Translations under genes and position numbers: made by a program
Notes under the pieces: generated by a model
The model's input: only the letters and a program-made list of their open reading frames with translations
What the model was told of the DNA's origin: nothing
The model's database searches: none
From: Thermococcus sp. CX2
GTDB lineage: Archaea; Methanobacteriota_B; Thermococci; Thermococcales; Thermococcaceae
Reading direction: 5' to 3'
DNA length: 64,000 nucleotides
Assembly (NCBI RefSeq): GCF_012027555.1
Contig: NZ_SNUQ01000002.1
Span: forward strand, 434,001-498,000
In this document: in pieces, positions 4,932-22,387 of the stretch
How the letters are laid out: each line of letters starts with the position of its first letter
Position numbering within the stretch: the first letter of the stretch is position 1

Positions 4932-5087
4932 CATCATCACCGTCTTTTATTTTGGCCATCATTATGAACCGGTCTTTAAGCGATTTCCGGTTGAGTAATC
5001 GATTTCTACCCCTCCGTTCAGATGTTCATCGAAAAGATTAAAAGAGCCTAATTCCAATGCTGAATCAAAGACAGTGGGGTGGTTGCC

Positions 5088-6587
5088 ATGGAGGAAGTCT
5101 TCCAGAACGAAACCATCAAGCAGATTCTCGCCAAGTACAGGCGCATCTGGGCCATTAGCCACGCCCAGAGCGTTCTCGGCTGGGACATGGAGGTTAACAT
5201 GCCGAGGGAGGGCATACTCGAGCGCTCCGTTGCCCAGGGTGAGCTTTCCGTTCTTAGCCAGGAGTTCCTTCTAAGGCCTGACTTTGTCGAGCTCGTCGAG
5301 AAGGCGAAGGGAATCGAAGACCTCAACGAGTACGAGCGCGGCGTCGTTCGCGTCCTCGACCGCTCAATCAGGATAAGCAAGTCCTTCCCACCCGAGTTCC
5401 TCAGGGAGATGAGCGAGGTAACGAGCCAGGCAACGAAAGCATGGGAAGAGGCTAAAAGAACCAACGACTACTCCAAGTTCGAGCCCTGGCTCGACAGAAT
5501 CATAGACCTCGCCAAGAGGGCCGCTGACTACCTAGGCTACGAGGACGAGCCCTACGATGCCCTGCTCGACCTCTTTGAGGAGGGGACAACCACCAGAGAC
5601 GTCGAAAGGATGTTCAAAAAGCTGGAGAAGGAGCTTAAGCCGCTCCTCGAAAAGATAATGGAGGAGGGAAAGGTCCCGCAGAGCCACCCGCTCGAAAAGG
5701 AGAAGTACGAGAGGGAGCAAATGGAGCGCGTTAACCTCTGGATTTTAGAGAAGTTCGGCTTCCCGCTCGGCGTCCGCTCAAGGCTTGACGTCTCTGCCCA
5801 TCCGTTCACCACGGAGTTTGGCATAAGGGACGTCAGGATAACGACCAGATACGAGGGCTACGACTTCAGGAGGACCATACTGAGCACTGTCCACGAGTTC
5901 GGTCATGCCCTCTACGAGCTCCAGCAGGATGAGCGCTTCATGTTCAGCCCAATCGCTGGAGGCGTCTCCCTTGGAATCCACGAGAGCCAGAGTAGGTTCT
6001 GGGAGAACGTAATCGGAAGGAGCAGGGAGTTCGCCGAGCTGATTCATCCCGTGCTCAAGGAGAACCTGCCCTTCATGGCCACCTACACGCCTGAGGATGT
6101 TTACCTCTACTTCAACATGGTCAGGCCGGACTTCATCAGGACCGAGTCCGACGTTGTAACCTACAACTTCCACATACTCCTTCGCTTCAAGCTCGAGAGG
6201 ATGATGCTCAACGAGGGCGTCAAGGCGAAAGACCTCCCAGAGCTCTGGAACGAGGAGATGGAGAGGCTCCTTGGCATAAGGCCCAAGAATTACACCGAGG
6301 GAATACTTCAGGACATCCACTGGGCCCACGGCACTGTCGGCTACTTCCCAACTTACAGCATCGGAACGCTCCTTTCAGCGCAGATATACTACCACATGAA
6401 GAGGGACATTCCGGACTTCGAGGAGAAGGTTGCCAGAGCCGAGTTCGAGCCCATCAAGGCCTGGCTGAGGGAGAAGATACACCGCTGGGGCAGCATCTAC
6501 CCACCGAAGGAGCTCTTAAAGAAGGCCATCGGCGAGGAGCTGAACCCGGACTACTTCGTCCGCTGGGTGAAGGAGAGGTACCTATGA
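5088..6587 (+). CDS. Metallocarboxypeptidase, M32 (Taq) family
   Basis: A 499-residue carboxypeptidase that removes C-terminal residues from peptides using a divalent metal. The metal site is HEFGH with His269, Glu270 and His273, and the third ligand is Glu299 in GIHESQSRFWEN. The family motif ITTRY is at about 251-255. The ATG at 5088 is preferred over GTG 5079, because GGGGTGG at 5076-5082 is a well-spaced ribosome binding site for it. The resulting length equals that of the Pyrococcus furiosus enzyme as I remember it. It probably acts in intracellular peptide breakdown during peptide fermentation. It is monocistronic, ending only nine bases before the stop of the convergent AT-rich gene. 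Confidence 0.95.
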   Translation: MEEVFQNETIKQILAKYRRIWAISHAQSVLGWDMEVNMPREGILERSVAQGELSVLSQEFLLRPDFVELVEKAKGIEDLNEYERGVVRVLDRSIRISKSFPPEFLREMSEVTSQATKAWEEAKRTNDYSKFEPWLDRIIDLAKRAADYLGYEDEPYDALLDLFEEGTTTRDVERMFKKLEKELKPLLEKIMEEGKVPQSHPLEKEKYEREQMERVNLWILEKFGFPLGVRSRLDVSAHPFTTEFGIRDVRITTRYEGYDFRRTILSTVHEFGHALYELQQDERFMFSPIAGGVSLGIHESQSRFWENVIGRSREFAELIHPVLKENLPFMATYTPEDVYLYFNMVRPDFIRTESDVVTYNFHILLRFKLERMMLNEGVKAKDLPELWNEEMERLLGIRPKNYTEGILQDIHWAHGTVGYFPTYSIGTLLSAQIYYHMKRDIPDFEEKVARAEFEPIKAWLREKIHRWGSIYPPKELLKKAIGEELNPDYFVRWVKERYL

Positions 6588-6596
6588 GGTTTAGGT

Positions 6597-8555
6597 TTAG
6601 TCTTCCAATCCTAGTTCTTTTAATTGTTTGTTCTTAATCCATTCTTTTATGAATGGCTTGATTTTAGGATATCCTTTGAGAATCTCAAGTACTGTTCCAC
6701 CACCTCCTAAAATTAAACCAGCAATAGCTCCAGGTATTCCCAATAAATATATTAGGAGTGCAGATAGCGCTATTGCACTTCCGGTGCATACAATAATAGA
6801 ATATCTATTGGCTTTTTCATTTGATATCTTCTCAACACGTTTTAGTATCTGTTCCTTTTGTATTCTTTTGCCCTCTTCAATTAGTTCAGGTTCTTTTTGT
6901 TTTATCAGTGTGGTGTATTTTTTCTCTATCTCTTGTTCTTTCCTCTTTTCAATATCCTTTTCCATCTTTTTTGTAGCTTCTTCTATGGACTTAAGAACAA
7001 ACTCTTCGTTTATTTCGTCTATTTCCTCTTCTGAGAATTCCAAGAGTACTGTTTCAATGTAGTCATGATAAAATAACGTTGCAATGTCATCTTGGGAAAT
7101 CTTTCCCGACTCCTTTAGACGAAGTACTATCTGGTAAAACTTCTCCCATATTCCTCTTGCTACTAAAAGGGTATTAGAGTATGAGGCGATTATTACATGC
7201 ACGGGTAGATTTGGATTTAGTGTAGGATCCTTGAGCCATAGTATAGTAGCTAGTAGCCTGTCTGGTATAACTTCGGGTATTGTTCCTGAGATTTTGTGCC
7301 CAAAGGTTTCTAAGTTAAATTTACTTAATTTGAGGTCTGATGTCAAAAATATGTATTCTGCATTTTCAATCTTTCTGGGCGATTTTCCTCGCTTCTTTTG
7401 TATTAGGCATATAGATGCTAAATCATGATTTTGGGACTCAAAAAATGCCGTGTCTGAATTGTACATGCTTTGTGGTTTATATTTTGCCAGTTTTAACCTG
7501 ATCTCAGATGGGTTATCCACACAATCTGGGCTATATCTGTTTAGGTCTATATCGGTGTGTTCAATCTCTATTCCCAATTCTTTCACGCTGTCCTCAAGAG
7601 TTGCTATGAAGTAGTTTACTTGAGGTTCTTTCCACCCTTTCTTTCGAAGTATGTCATATAAGGAATCGACACGGATTTTGCTTGAATATTTAGATATCGC
7701 AGTTGGATAGCCCTTAACAACCCTAACCATCTCCGCTAAAGTAAAGTCAAAAACTTTTATTTTGAATTGAGAATATTTTTTTATCATGTCGAAAAGTTCC
7801 TTTGTGGCTTTATTTCTCTCTTTTGTATGAAGTTCAAATAAACTGAACAGAAAATTAGAATCTAAGTAAATAGTCAATGGTGTGAACTTCTCTTTGATAT
7901 TTTGATCTGTATGATCATAAAATAAAGCTATTGATATTATCGAGCCGAGAATTATCTCTTGAAATATCTCAAACATATCATCATTGTTTTCGTATATATG
8001 TTTGATGTATTTATAAATTTCAATGTCGAGCTTTCTCTGTTCTTTACTTTTCTCTTTTTCCTCAGGGAATGGGGAAATGTGGGACGACAAGAATCCAATT
8101 AGGAGATTGATATTGGACTCAATAAATCTGAAGAATCCCTCCTCTACTCTGTCTTTTTGATATTTTGGGGTGCTACTGGGTGAATTTCTATTAATAAATT
8201 CGGTCATGTCAAGCAAAAATTTGTTGAGTCTTCTTTTTTGTTTCTCCTCTATGTCGTCTATAGATTGTATGAATTCCAGCCCTTTTTTGGTAAGGACATA
8301 TTCGTGTTTCTTGTTATTATATTCGATATACTCGTCTTTAATTGCCCTTTTTATTATTGTTTCGAGGGCGTATCTTGGAATATCAAATCCAAATCTGAGA
8401 TTGATCATGTCCCTAATATCTTTGATCTTTGAATACGAGAAATCTTGGGGGAGAGCCCTAAGAACAAATGGGTAAAATACTTCAATATAATCATGGCCTT
8501 CCCTATGAAGGGCGTGAATTAGGGCATATGAGTATAATTTGGTTAAAGGTTGCAT
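6597..8555 (-). CDS. AT-rich orphan: winged-helix / PIN-like nuclease / coiled coil / membrane protein
   Basis: A 652-residue protein of unusual design. Residues 40-95 look like a winged helix. Residues 226-410 carry the four acidic positions of a PIN nuclease fold: Asp232 (YLDSN), Glu275 (LAEM), Asp378 (NHDLAS) and Asp407 (LTSDLKL). Residues 505-580 are a charged coiled coil. Two hydrophobic helices (about 584-620) and a basic tail end the protein. The gene is visibly richer in A+T than all its neighbours, with many AAA and ATA codons, which suggests recent acquisition. Its own promoter lies upstream (TGTATAATA near 8577-8586), with GGAGGA as ribosome binding site. No antitoxin-like partner is adjacent. 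PIN is my reading from motif spacing; the function is unknown, with RNA cleavage in defence or stress being inference. Confidence 0.75.
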   Translation of the reverse strand: MQPLTKLYSYALIHALHREGHDYIEVFYPFVLRALPQDFSYSKIKDIRDMINLRFGFDIPRYALETIIKRAIKDEYIEYNNKKHEYVLTKKGLEFIQSIDDIEEKQKRRLNKFLLDMTEFINRNSPSSTPKYQKDRVEEGFFRFIESNINLLIGFLSSHISPFPEEKEKSKEQRKLDIEIYKYIKHIYENNDDMFEIFQEIILGSIISIALFYDHTDQNIKEKFTPLTIYLDSNFLFSLFELHTKERNKATKELFDMIKKYSQFKIKVFDFTLAEMVRVVKGYPTAISKYSSKIRVDSLYDILRKKGWKEPQVNYFIATLEDSVKELGIEIEHTDIDLNRYSPDCVDNPSEIRLKLAKYKPQSMYNSDTAFFESQNHDLASICLIQKKRGKSPRKIENAEYIFLTSDLKLSKFNLETFGHKISGTIPEVIPDRLLATILWLKDPTLNPNLPVHVIIASYSNTLLVARGIWEKFYQIVLRLKESGKISQDDIATLFYHDYIETVLLEFSEEEIDEINEEFVLKSIEEATKKMEKDIEKRKEQEIEKKYTTLIKQKEPELIEEGKRIQKEQILKRVEKISNEKANRYSIIVCTGSAIALSALLIYLLGIPGAIAGLILGGGGTVLEILKGYPKIKPFIKEWIKNKQLKELGLED

Positions 8556-8670
8556 TGCTCTTCCTCCATGAAAATTGTATTATACATTCAGTCTAAAATA
8601 ATAAACAAGCTCTTAGGTACATAAGATTTACGCAATTAAAGAACACTTATACCTTTGTGTTTTCATAATG

Positions 8671-9012
8671 CTAGCCTCCAACCCACCCAACAGGCTCTAC
8701 CTCTATCGCCGCAACACCGTACTTCTTCTCCTTATCCTCGCTGTAGAACTTTCTGTAAACCTTCACGCCTTCCTCGATGCTATCTACTCCAGGCAGGACG
8801 TTCTCGAGGCCCTCTTTCTCAAGCATCTCTCTGAAGGAGGAGTAAACTCTGATGTCCTTCACGACCACCATGAGCTTGTTCTCGAAGATTATCGTATCGC
8901 CCGGCTTTATCCCCTGCCTCTTCTCGTCGTAGAGCCTTCCCTCGACCTTCTTCCTGCCCTCGGCTATTGCCTTGAGGTACTCCTCCTGAAGACCCATTCT
9001 CCACGTTGCCAT
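8671..9012 (-). CDS. ASCH-domain protein
   Basis: A 113-residue protein fitting a single ASCH domain, the PUA-like fold. The elements are an N-terminal helix with IAEGRKKVEGRLYDEKRQ, then KPGDTIIFEN, and a C-terminal strand AAIEVEP. ASCH domains are thought to bind RNA or nucleotides, and some cleave modified nucleosides. The ribosome binding site GAGGTG precedes ATG 9012. It follows the FAD reductase gene by nine bases on the same strand and is probably cotranscribed, though a functional link is not evident. Confidence 0.85.
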   Translation of the reverse strand: MATWRMGLQEEYLKAIAEGRKKVEGRLYDEKRQGIKPGDTIIFENKLMVVVKDIRVYSSFREMLEKEGLENVLPGVDSIEEGVKVYRKFYSEDKEKKYGVAAIEVEPVGWVGG

Positions 9013-18478: not shown

Positions 18479-19412
18479 TCTCCTTAACTGGAACGGTTCT
18501 CGCCGCGGCTTTTATCCTTTTCAGCTTCTCCACGTTGCTCCGGAACGAGAGGTCGCGTCTTATCATCTCCCTGAGGTCTCCGTTCTCAATTCTCATCTCC
18601 CGGGCTTTAAACGCTTTTAAGTACCCCGCAATGAGGCCGTAGGTTTTGACTGGGTTGTCCAGCATGAGGAACGCTGCCCTTGCGAGTATCGAAGTGAAGG
18701 CCGCTCCGAGCTTGTAGTTCGACCACCCGAGCATCTCATAACCCCTCAAAAAGCCGAACCTGCCCTCTGTTTCCCTGAGCTGAACTGCTATGGCGTCCAC
18801 GATCTGCCCAGTCTCCCATCCAAGGAACCTAGCAAGGTAATGGGATACCGTATCTGGACTTGGGCCTTCTCGGTATCCCCCGACCTCTCTGAAGCACTCC
18901 CTCCTGAATAGCCTCGGGCTTCCTTTTGGTCTCTTGGGATCGGTGCCCTCCCATACCAAGCGGCCGTTTCTGATGTAGTATCCTCCCCCGCTCGCTATTC
19001 CAAGTCTGTTGTTTTTGTGGAACGCGTCAATTAGCTCCTCAAAAAACCTTCTCTCGAGGATGAAGTCCGCGTCGAGAACACCTATGTATCCGAAGACCAA
19101 ACTCCGCTCGAGCGCTATTTCGAGGGCCCTTTTAAAGCCCCGCCTCACGACATCGGAATAGCGGTATTTGAGGTCGTAGCCGGTGACCTCGTCCCTGAGG
19201 TGGAGGACTTCAATCCAGTCGAACTCTCTTGAGAGCTCTTCCGCTATCTCTCCCGTCCTGTCTGTACTGTTGTCATCCACAATGAGCCACAGCTTCGGCT
19301 TAATGCTTTGGTTGATGACGCTCTTGGCTAACAGAGGCAGATTTTTTTCCTCGTTTTTTGCGGGAGTTACGATAATGTAGCCCTTTGTTCGGGAACTTCT
19401 TGGCTTTCTCAC
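18462..19412 (-). CDS. Family 2 glycosyltransferase
   Basis: A 316-residue GT-A enzyme. The donor site is IIVTPAKNEEKNLPLLAKSV with LWLIVDDNSTDRTGE, and the DXD-like motif is GVLDADFILERRFFEELI. A hydrophobic stretch near 235-260 may contact the membrane. It starts at GTG in a four-base overlap with the phosphatase-superfamily gene upstream and runs 17 bases into the next gene, so translation is coupled. Sugar specificity is unknown. Confidence 0.9.
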   Translation of the reverse strand: MRKPRSSRTKGYIIVTPAKNEEKNLPLLAKSVINQSIKPKLWLIVDDNSTDRTGEIAEELSREFDWIEVLHLRDEVTGYDLKYRYSDVVRRGFKRALEIALERSLVFGYIGVLDADFILERRFFEELIDAFHKNNRLGIASGGGYYIRNGRLVWEGTDPKRPKGSPRLFRRECFREVGGYREGPSPDTVSHYLARFLGWETGQIVDAIAVQLRETEGRFGFLRGYEMLGWSNYKLGAAFTSILARAAFLMLDNPVKTYGLIAGYLKAFKAREMRIENGDLREMIRRDLSFRSNVEKLKRIKAAARTVPVKESGVRG

Positions 19413-20275
19413 TTCCTCCCCTCCGCCTTCTCAACGACCAGTTTAAACAAATCTTGGGGCCTCTCTATAAGCTCCCCCGTGTTGCTGCTGAAAAAACCAT
19501 GGTCGGAGTGGTCACCCCCACGTGGATCGCCAGGAATGGGCTCCATGCCGTGGTCGGAGATTATGTAGAGCACGTCGCCTTCGTCCAGCTTTTCCGAAAC
19601 CCTCTTGACAAGCCTGTTCACGTCGAGATACAGGTTCATCAGCTTTAGCTTTTTCCTGATGTAGAAGTGTGAAATCTCGTCGAGGAAGGGGGTGTACCAG
19701 AAGATAAGCTCGTAGTCTCCGTTAAGTGCTTCGAAGAGGGCTTTTCTGTCCTGCTCGTAAGTCCTCATCGCGTATTCCACGAGGGGCTTTAGGTTGCCCT
19801 TAACGGCTTCCGCCATAGCTGCCTTTACCTCTGGGTTTGAGACGTTTCTCCCATAGGATGGGACGCCGTTGGTCCAGGTTTTGTCGAAGTAGTCGAAGAT
19901 TGTTTTGTACTTCTTCGTTCTGAGGAGGTAATCGTAGGTGTGTTCAAATGGGTTGGGAGCTATCCTGTTGCCGATTATCTTTCTTACTACCCTGGGCAAG
20001 ATTTTAGCTCCAAATTTAACGTAAAATGGCTTTTTAATGTCCTTTGCTATGTTGGTTTCTTGTGCCAAGAACTTCTGCCGTTTTACGAAGGGCTCTTCTA
20101 TCTCGGGAACTTTTCGGCCAGTGAGCATTGCGGCCCATATTGGTGGGGTTACTATGACCTTGAAGTCTGAGAGGTCGGTCTTTGTGTATGCCTTCTGTTT
20201 AAGATGCTTAAGATTCCACTCTTCAATGAGGTTGTATTCGAGTCCGTCTATCCCGAGTATGATTATCTTTCCCAT
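19409..20275 (-). CDS. Phosphodiesterase/nucleotide-pyrophosphatase-like protein
   Basis: A 288-residue alkaline-phosphatase-superfamily protein, short for the family. Asp10 is in IILGIDGLEYN. The predicted nucleophile is Thr43 in VTPPIWAAMLTGR, and ISDHGMEPIPGDPRGGDHSDHG supplies the C-terminal metal ligands. It has no signal peptide, so it probably acts in the cytoplasm. It sits between two glycosyltransferases with a two-base gap and a four-base overlap. It could hydrolyse a nucleotide sugar, a pyrophosphate or a lipid-linked intermediate; sequence does not decide. Confidence 0.85.
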   Translation of the reverse strand: MGKIIILGIDGLEYNLIEEWNLKHLKQKAYTKTDLSDFKVIVTPPIWAAMLTGRKVPEIEEPFVKRQKFLAQETNIAKDIKKPFYVKFGAKILPRVVRKIIGNRIAPNPFEHTYDYLLRTKKYKTIFDYFDKTWTNGVPSYGRNVSNPEVKAAMAEAVKGNLKPLVEYAMRTYEQDRKALFEALNGDYELIFWYTPFLDEISHFYIRKKLKLMNLYLDVNRLVKRVSEKLDEGDVLYIISDHGMEPIPGDPRGGDHSDHGFFSSNTGELIERPQDLFKLVVEKAEGRK

Positions 20276-20277
20276 CG

Positions 20278-21279
20278 TCAGCTCCCCCTGTTCATCCAGA
20301 AGTTTATGTCTCCCTTCTTAATCCTGTTGCGGTTGGCTAGGGCTAGCCACATTGCCTCAAGCATGTAAACAATTTTGAGAGCTTTTTCCTTTTTAAAGCC
20401 GGAAGTTACGAACAGAATGGAATGGAGCATGAGGTCGCCGATTCTACCGAGTATGTAGGAGGTTTTGTTCCTTGGGTTTTGCTCGAAGAGCTTGTAGAAA
20501 AGGTAGAGGTGGTATACCTGCTTCATCGTTTCAAACTGCTTGGAGGGAAGCCTACCAGCTGGGGCCTCTTGGTGTATCAGCCTTGCATGTGGGGTTTGAT
20601 AGAGAGAATTGGGAAAAATCTTGTGAACCCGATATGAGAAGTCCTTGTCCTCTCCGATTGCGTACCGCTTGAGACGCTCGTCGAACTCCATGTGTTCAAA
20701 AATTTCCTTTCTGTAGGACATGTTCGTTCCGCTAAAGCTTTCTCTATTTATTACCTTCGTGACCTTGTAGGGGAGAATTTCAAAGAATGAAGGGAGCTGT
20801 TTGTGAAGGTCTACCTCGTAGTAACCCCTCTGCAGGAGCCACCAGAGGAACTTGAGGAATTTAAACCTGATTAGGGGATTGTGCATGTTGATTCTATTGG
20901 TTATGAATCCTTGAACCCCCATAGCAGTTGGATACGTTTCATAAACTTCAACGAGCTTTTTCAGGTAGTCGTCTTCAAGTACAACGTCATCATCGAGGAA
21001 CAGCACTATATCTCCCTTTGAGGACTTTACTCCTATGTTCCTTGCGTGGGGTAAACTCGCTCCCGGGACGCTAATATGCTTTACGACTATTCCCTTGTTT
21101 TTCATTTTTTTGAAGATGCCTTCAAACTCATGCCTAACCCTTTCCCACGAGCCATCGAAGCTACCATTAATGATGATAACCTCTATTGGGGGGAAGGTCT
21201 GGGAGATTATAGACTCGAGGCACTCCCTAAACTCCCTGGGACGTTTGTAGAGCGTTGAGATAACAATTGATACTAGCAT
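20278..21279 (-). CDS. Family 2 glycosyltransferase, first gene of the glycan run
   Basis: A 333-residue GT-A enzyme starting MLVSIVISTLYKRP. The DXD-type motif is VLFLDDDVVLEDDYLKKLVE, and the acceptor-side HARLIHQEAPAGR is near residue 245. A further upstream ATG at 21312 would fall in the promoter: the TATA element lies at 21311-21322, so transcription should begin near 21290. ATG 21279 also has GTGAT before it. The gene is moderately AT-rich. It is divergent from the sulfotransferase gene. Confidence 0.9.
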   Translation of the reverse strand: MLVSIVISTLYKRPREFRECLESIISQTFPPIEVIIINGSFDGSWERVRHEFEGIFKKMKNKGIVVKHISVPGASLPHARNIGVKSSKGDIVLFLDDDVVLEDDYLKKLVEVYETYPTAMGVQGFITNRINMHNPLIRFKFLKFLWWLLQRGYYEVDLHKQLPSFFEILPYKVTKVINRESFSGTNMSYRKEIFEHMEFDERLKRYAIGEDKDFSYRVHKIFPNSLYQTPHARLIHQEAPAGRLPSKQFETMKQVYHLYLFYKLFEQNPRNKTSYILGRIGDLMLHSILFVTSGFKKEKALKIVYMLEAMWLALANRNRIKKGDINFWMNRGS

Positions 21280-21400
21280 GGGTATCACTATCAAAAACAA
21301 AACTCTAGACAATATAAAAAGGTAGCTAAATGAAGATGTCGCAAACTATTTAATGGCCTTTTTCAACCACTTGTTGATTGCTGTTGGGGGGAGAAAGTCG

Positions 21401-22387
21401 ATGAACTTGTTCTCATTTCCAATCTCCAGAACTAACTACGCCATAGATTTAATCAGCGCACGTATGCACGATTTCAAAATCATGGAGACAATAGTCATAT
21501 CCGGAACACCTCGCTCGGGCTCCACATGGCTCATGGAGATTCTTGAGTCCCTGCCAGACTATAAGTCTGTCTTTGAGCCATTTCATCCAAACTGGTATCC
21601 CGAGTTCAGAAAACTCGGCATCCACTACGATCCCTACATCCCAACTCCTGAAGACTATCCAAAGCTCCGGGAGTACCTTGGGCGTGTTTTCACTGGAAAG
21701 GCCTATGGGATGTTTCCCTACAAGCACTATCTTGCACCTGGTAGAGTCCTGAAAAGGCTCACTGCAAATAAGCTCCTCGTGAAGTTCGTGAGGGCCAACA
21801 CGATGCTTCCTTGGGTTGCAAATACCTTCGATTTAAGGGCTGTTTATTTCATAATCCGTCATCCCTGTGCAACGATAGCCTCCCAGCTTGTGACTGGATA
21901 CTTCTCGCGGATAACCAAGGAACAGTTCTTGGACGAGGTTAGGAAGGTTTCTGAGCTGGCCGGGAGTGAGTGGCTAATGGACAAGCTTTCGGGCATTAGC
22001 TCCCAGATAGAACTCTTGGCGGCCATCTGGGCTTTTGAGAACTACATCCCGCTGGCCTCCGAGAGGCCGTATCCATGGTACACCGTGATATACGAGCGTC
22101 TGATCACCGACCCCGAAGAGGAGCTGGATTCTATTTTTGGCTATATCAATGAGGACGTGCCTGAAGGGGCAAGAAAAAGGCTCAGAACTCCGAGCAAGGT
22201 TACGCGCAAAACCTATGGAAAGACCTACATCGGCACTCCAAAACAGCTCATCAAGTGGCGTGAGAAGCTTACCGAACGGCAAATTGATGCAATTTTGGAG
22301 GTTGTCTCGTGGTTTGGGATGGACTTCTATGGTAATGAGCCCGAGCCCGACTACGATGCCCTTAAAAACTGGAGACCTCCCTTCTAG
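21401..22387 (+). CDS. Sulfotransferase-family protein
   Basis: A PAPS-dependent sulfotransferase of about 328 residues. The 5'-phosphosulfate loop is ISGTPRSGSTWLMEIL, and the 3'-phosphate motif is FIIRHPCATIASQLVTGYF with its Arg and Ser. ATG 21401 has GGGGGGA before it. The longer frame from 21353 would begin at the likely TATA box (ACTATTTAATGG, about 21342-21353). It probably moves sulfate from PAPS to a sugar of the glycan made by the flanking enzymes; the acceptor is unknown. It is the only gene of the region on the plus strand, ending in a four-base overlap with the convergent flippase gene. Confidence 0.88.
   Translation: MNLFSFPISRTNYAIDLISARMHDFKIMETIVISGTPRSGSTWLMEILESLPDYKSVFEPFHPNWYPEFRKLGIHYDPYIPTPEDYPKLREYLGRVFTGKAYGMFPYKHYLAPGRVLKRLTANKLLVKFVRANTMLPWVANTFDLRAVYFIIRHPCATIASQLVTGYFSRITKEQFLDEVRKVSELAGSEWLMDKLSGISSQIELLAAIWAFENYIPLASERPYPWYTVIYERLITDPEEELDSIFGYINEDVPEGARKRLRTPSKVTRKTYGKTYIGTPKQLIKWREKLTERQIDAILEVVSWFGMDFYGNEPEPDYDALKNWRPPF

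Follow-up and report, generated by a model that had tools for sequence, protein, structure and literature searches.

A gene inserted at a variable site of Thermococcus represents a protein family with a predicted membrane-tethered PIN nuclease and a likely role in antiviral defence

Most of the PIN domains studied so far cut RNA, and their FEN-type relatives cut DNA. DS-3 (DefensePredictor) is a single-protein PIN system devoid of an antitoxin that defends Escherichia coli and needs its catalytic residues to do so (PMC13092281). SNIPE is a membrane-bound nuclease able to defend (PMC13190303). The fun(Z) gene of P2, found at the tail sheath/tail fibre assembly locus, blocks T5, and in a functional screen its site was named as a second locus of P2-like phages enriched in defence (PMC9519451). 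Here we describe a gene of Thermococcus sp. CX2 that, on balance, seems to encode a horizontally transferred, single-protein antiviral nuclease, i.e. a membrane-tethered PIN enzyme that would cut RNA without an antitoxin. It is part of a 64,000-nucleotide stretch of DNA, which we call the window. The gene and its surroundings are as follows.

5079–6587, plus strand: left flank, a carboxypeptidase (presumably M32-like) that is core to the genus, present in 36 of the 61 genomes searched and almost throughout the genus.
6597–8555, minus strand: gene for a 652-residue protein, with an ATG start, an open frame and purifying selection relative to the copy of a second genome of the genus (G027).
8563–8567, minus strand: GGAGG, a probable ribosome-binding site located 7 bases ahead of the ATG, read directly in the sequence.
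8671–9012, minus strand: right flank, an ASCH-domain gene (ASCH match E 1.2e-18).

The gene is foreign-looking in its host genome. Its GC content is 0.346 and its GC3 0.338, compared with 0.51–0.56 and 0.64–0.80, respectively, in ten neighbouring genes; the AT-richness noted in a preliminary description of this DNA is thus real. The region 19409–22387 of the window is also AT-richer (GC ~0.43–0.46). It carries glycosyltransferase-like, phosphodiesterase-like and sulfotransferase-like genes and is probably a variable cell-surface polysaccharide locus.

The 3' ends of the carboxypeptidase and ASCH genes face each other, and in seven genomes without an insert they are separated by 4, 40, 72, 95, 96, 151 and 193 bases. 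We compared this gap (6587–8671 in the window) with loci L062, L065–L068 and L071–L081. In other genomes, it is occupied by VapB-VapC pairs, a DUF433/DUF5615 pair, an IS605-type TnpB or long repeat proteins. Only 2 of the 115 sampled genomes of the phylum carry the 6597–8555 gene, namely the window genome and G027, of the same genus, where it is found in the same place. The gene is an insertion at a variable site of the genus, and different PIN-type genes appear to take each other's place in this gap. Several genomes retain what look like antitoxin remnants in this gap. A search with the classical PIN family yielded only 3 matches in the window genome (G000), compared with 9–36 in eight related genomes of the genus, and hence the window genome seems poor in VapC-type genes.

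Pairwise comparison of the two archaeal copies, which are 72% identical, gave dN/dS values of ~0.09 for the winged-helix part and ~0.06 for the PIN part. Up to residue 530, dN is 0.08–0.13, and dN/dS is 0.06–0.10 where dS can be estimated. These low ratios indicate that the gene is kept by selection. In contrast, dN reaches 0.6–0.8 over the coil and membrane part, where identity falls to 36% and 25%. Thus, the anchor evolves much faster than the body of the protein. The predicted parts of the protein, all coded on the minus strand, are listed below with what supports them.

8226–8555, minus strand: winged-helix-like N-terminus, residues 1–110 (HTH_45 E 0.0016 over residues 68–106, below the cut-off; phrog_25401, DNA-binding, E 0.0015 over residues 28–101; wing-like YVLTKKGLEFI).
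7881–8225, minus strand: helical linker, residues 111–225 (low-confidence model; conserved in the alignment).
7221–7880, minus strand: PIN-like nuclease domain, residues 226–445, with ~100 residues inserted after E275 and before D378 (profile compared with PIN sets and with their shuffles; PIN_3 matches in two relatives; fold search using the model of one relative).
7860–7862, minus strand: D232, first catalytic-type Asp, in strand 1 (present in all 14 non-redundant members; aligned with the Asp of PIN domains).
7731–7733, minus strand: E275, catalytic-type Glu (invariant; aligned with the Glu of PIN_3).
7422–7424, minus strand: D378, catalytic-type Asp (in 13 of 14 members).
7335–7343, minus strand: T405-x-D407, T-x-N in bacteria (T405 invariant; position 407 is Asn in 12 members, Asp in the archaeal copy and Ser in one).
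6801–6965, minus strand: charged, fast-evolving coiled coil, residues 531–585 (36% identity to the G027 copy compared with 76–83% upstream; dN 0.61).
6678–6800, minus strand: membrane segment or segments, residues 586–626 (hydropathy; strong at 587–605, a second, weaker one in the window protein).

The protein had initially been regarded as an orphan, which proved wrong. Fourteen distinct relatives are found in four bacterial phyla, in addition to the one in G027. Searching plasmids with tblastn revealed relatives in Sporosarcina, Enterococcus, Arthrobacter, Pantoea and Klebsiella (18–24% identity, E-values down to 9e-18), and further searches added Hymenobacter, two E. coli chromosomes, Kluyvera, Salinibius and four Pseudomonadota genomes. 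Annotated records label these relatives 'hypothetical protein' or lack a complete gene annotation for them. The family is sparse. DNA similarity detected it in 2 of 5,426 complete E. coli genomes. Among 397 Pseudomonadota genomes, it is present in 2 besides the genome used as the centre, with one very short match left out. No convincing archaeal members beyond the window genome and G027 were found in 396 sampled genomes. We did not count weak archaeal matches covering only the coil or the N-terminus (G116, G901, G906, G988, G1005 and G1031), nor a match of 56 positions in G467 (E 5e-4). Scans of genome and viral collections with the single protein gave no match, and neither did a search of phage genomes for relatives. 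Two plasmid relatives are damaged: that of Enterococcus faecium AKSZ-47 (L005, 11995–15054) is broken by an IS256-type element, and that of a Listeria plasmid (L014, 10052–10813) is a C-terminal fragment adjoining an IS6 element.

No family in Pfam, NCBIfam, PHROGs or PADLOC covers the protein, and surveys based on these resources therefore miss it. The best matches to the PADLOC 2.0 (2023) defence models are weak and scattered (LeoA 0.0031, oMTase 0.0068, LmuC 0.022), and for that reason we rejected LmuC and the other PADLOC identities. Pfam matches to AAA_11, EMC3/TMCO1 and VIT1 look like coil or membrane artefacts, and sequence searches of the PDB returned just coil and membrane-protein noise.

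Six positions are invariant in the 14 non-redundant members: F30, D232, F269, E275, T405 and W440. The preliminary description had proposed four acidic residues at PIN-type spacing, D232, E275, D378 and D407, and all four are located where it placed them. The first three hold across the family as listed above. However, the Asp at position 407 is limited to the archaeal copy, and hence the fourth acid is not a general feature. Its absence from the bacterial members counts against a nuclease and antiviral reading; variation at this position is usual in PIN domains.

The comparison with PIN profiles yielded weak but specific matches. Using hhalign, the family profile matched the PIN sets that we built with E-values of 3.5e-4 (PIN_3), 9.2e-4 (PIN_12) and 0.011 (archaeal VapC), at probabilities of only 4–38%, and none of 100 column shuffles reached the real score for any of the three sets. 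D232 pairs with the PIN Asp in these alignments, and E275 with the PIN Glu in that of PIN_3. Pfam PIN_3 also matches two relatives at exactly this position, below its cut-off. The profile match does not go beyond the first half of the domain, ending at the ~100-residue insert that precedes D378. The structure model of the full-length protein is poor (pLDDT 45). That of the domain of the Kluyvera relative has a pTM of 0.61 and a better-predicted core. A fold search with the latter gave a best PDB match at E 0.017; none of the matches is individually significant, and several are repeats of one protein. We take 19 of the first 22 to be PIN or FEN-type nucleases, including Exo1, Utp24, Utp23, VapC2, PAE0151 and archaeal PIN-ATPases. 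The half-length profile match and the weak models count against the nuclease reading. Nevertheless, we assign the central domain to the PIN nucleases as very probable.

The N-terminal winged helix and the C-terminal coiled coil of the preliminary description are both predicted here, the former by the HTH_45 match below its cut-off. As to the two membrane helices that it described, the first is strong, but the second is weak in the window protein. Hydropathy predicts membrane segments in 15 of the 16 members and two C-terminal hydrophobic segments in 13 of them. Both the membrane and the PIN assignments, as sequence-based predictions, appear well supported. The proposed architecture of winged helix, PIN-like nuclease and membrane anchor has thus gained evidence from residues, profiles and the enrichment of PIN folds in the structure search, with an error at position 407.

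The genomic surroundings of the relatives bear on function. In E. coli FDAARGOS_1337 (L012), the gene lies in a P2-like prophage, between the tail sheath and tail fibre assembly genes and on the strand opposite the late genes, which is the locus and orientation of fun(Z) in P2. The second E. coli relative also belongs to a P2-like prophage, and another one adjoins a CI-type repressor on a viral contig. The Salinibius relative is inserted in a type I restriction operon, between hsdS and hsdR. CBASS genes are found ~1.2 kb downstream of the Sporosarcina plasmid gene, and the Hymenobacter plasmid gene is surrounded by McrBC, type III restriction, TIR and CHAT genes. Other relatives are on plasmids near or between IS elements and recombinases. 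We found no partner gene common to the relatives, including a conserved small gene. The 138-residue protein encoded downstream of the Pantoea relative (L004, 11982–12398) has a weak HEPN (RiboL-PSP) match and is not conserved beside other members; it is possibly the product of another conflict gene.

Not all loci point the same way. Three relatives are alone among housekeeping genes, and the Thermococcus copy has no antitoxin or known defence gene next to it in the window, as had been noted at the outset; the lack of a defence neighbour counts against an antiviral reading. On the other side, the same insertion site holds VapBC and related pairs in other genomes. These uncharacterised relatives occur on plasmids and prophages, several of them beside virus-defence genes, which argues for a likely stand-alone antiviral protein. 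The stand-alone effector suggested earlier therefore agrees with the defence loci, the mobile elements and the absence of a conserved partner, and we infer the defence part of that proposal, for the family as a whole, from genomic context at a few loci.

At the level of sequence, the family combines homologues in archaea and four bacterial phyla, PIN-type residues, a C-terminal anchor in almost all members, mobility and the lack of a conserved partner. A mechanism consistent with these features can be proposed. The coil and membrane segments would tether the PIN nuclease at the cytoplasmic face of the membrane, and the winged-helix N-terminus and helical linker would keep it inactive and bind a trigger or nucleic acid. 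The protein would probably inhibit itself until infection, with the winged helix possibly acting as a sensor. Upon infection, the PIN domain would be released and would cut RNA, possibly tRNA or mRNA as VapC toxins do. The cell would then be arrested and the growth of the virus stopped, all without an antitoxin.

Such abortive RNA cutting is our first choice over the cleavage of incoming nucleic acid at the membrane. The latter, which we consider unlikely, would make the protein an entry-site nuclease similar to SNIPE with a different catalytic domain, cutting viral nucleic acid during injection. Its location would itself separate virus from host, so no cell arrest would be needed. The membrane segments of nearly all members and the DNA-binding-like N-terminus would suit such a role, for which SNIPE is a precedent (PMC13190303), but the DUF4041 and GIY-YIG domains of the latter are absent from the Pfam matches listed. 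The fast evolution of the membrane-proximal part would be expected if it met variable partners, although it may reflect a simple lack of constraint. RNA as the target of most studied PIN domains also argues against this role, with the reservation of the DNA-cutting FEN-type relatives. A membrane-tethered PIN family of archaea and bacteria that cleaves viral nucleic acid as it enters would mean that the SNIPE principle had been invented independently with another type of nuclease, one at work in both domains of life; we regard this as distinctly unlikely.

It is very unlikely that the protein is a PIN RNase that serves to maintain a mobile element or to restrain growth under stress and plays no virus-specific role. 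VapC-type PIN domains do act as toxins, many copies of the gene are on plasmids, and the archaeal site is also used by VapBC pairs. However, neither an antitoxin nor a conserved partner gene was found, some copies are alone in chromosomes, and the locations at fun(Z) and within the restriction operon suit defence better. Finally, a membrane-bound transcription regulator with a working winged helix and an inactive PIN-like remnant is extremely improbable: the N-terminus is winged-helix-like and membrane-bound winged-helix regulators exist, but the catalytic-type residues rank with the best-conserved positions of the family, and a remnant without activity would hardly be expected to retain them in both archaea and bacteria.

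If the antiviral reading is true, a stand-alone, membrane-anchored PIN nuclease would be added to prokaryotic immunity. Two findings are surprising: the family extends from a hyperthermophilic archaeon to prophages of E. coli, and PIN-type genes are exchanged at a single archaeal site. With homologues at both ends of this range, a single family could be studied experimentally both in tractable bacteria and in an archaeal genus.

Lastly, we compared the protein with the known systems. P2 Fun(Z) shares its prophage locus and orientation with the E. coli relative L012; homology between the two was rejected (BLASTP E 3.3; hhalign probability 0.2%). Similar to VapC of VapBC, the window protein has a predicted PIN-type nuclease, and VapBC pairs are present at the same insertion site in related genomes. 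In contrast to VapC, it is five times longer, has a winged helix and a membrane anchor, and lacks a VapBC-type adjacent antitoxin in the window. SNIPE, too, consists of one protein, a membrane-bound nuclease whose membrane part is variable. However, it has a GIY-YIG nuclease, a DUF4041 domain and an N-terminal anchor, whereas the window family has a PIN domain and a C-terminal anchor, and no DUF4041 or GIY-YIG is found among the Pfam matches listed for the 16 members. Relative to the PIN superfamily (PF13470 PIN_3, PF16289 PIN_12, PF01850 PIN), the family has the Asp-Glu-Asp pattern with T-x-D/N and the first-half profile match, but it differs by the ~100-residue insert between the Glu and the third acid, and no Pfam PIN family reaches its cut-off. 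DS-3 also consists of one protein with a PIN domain, has no antitoxin and is presumed to be self-inhibited (PMC13092281). Compared by description only, the PIN domain of DS-3 is split between the N- and C-termini, whereas that of the window family is central and followed by the coil and membrane segments. Overall, the protein family is new but of a known functional kind, and its domain arrangement is its own.
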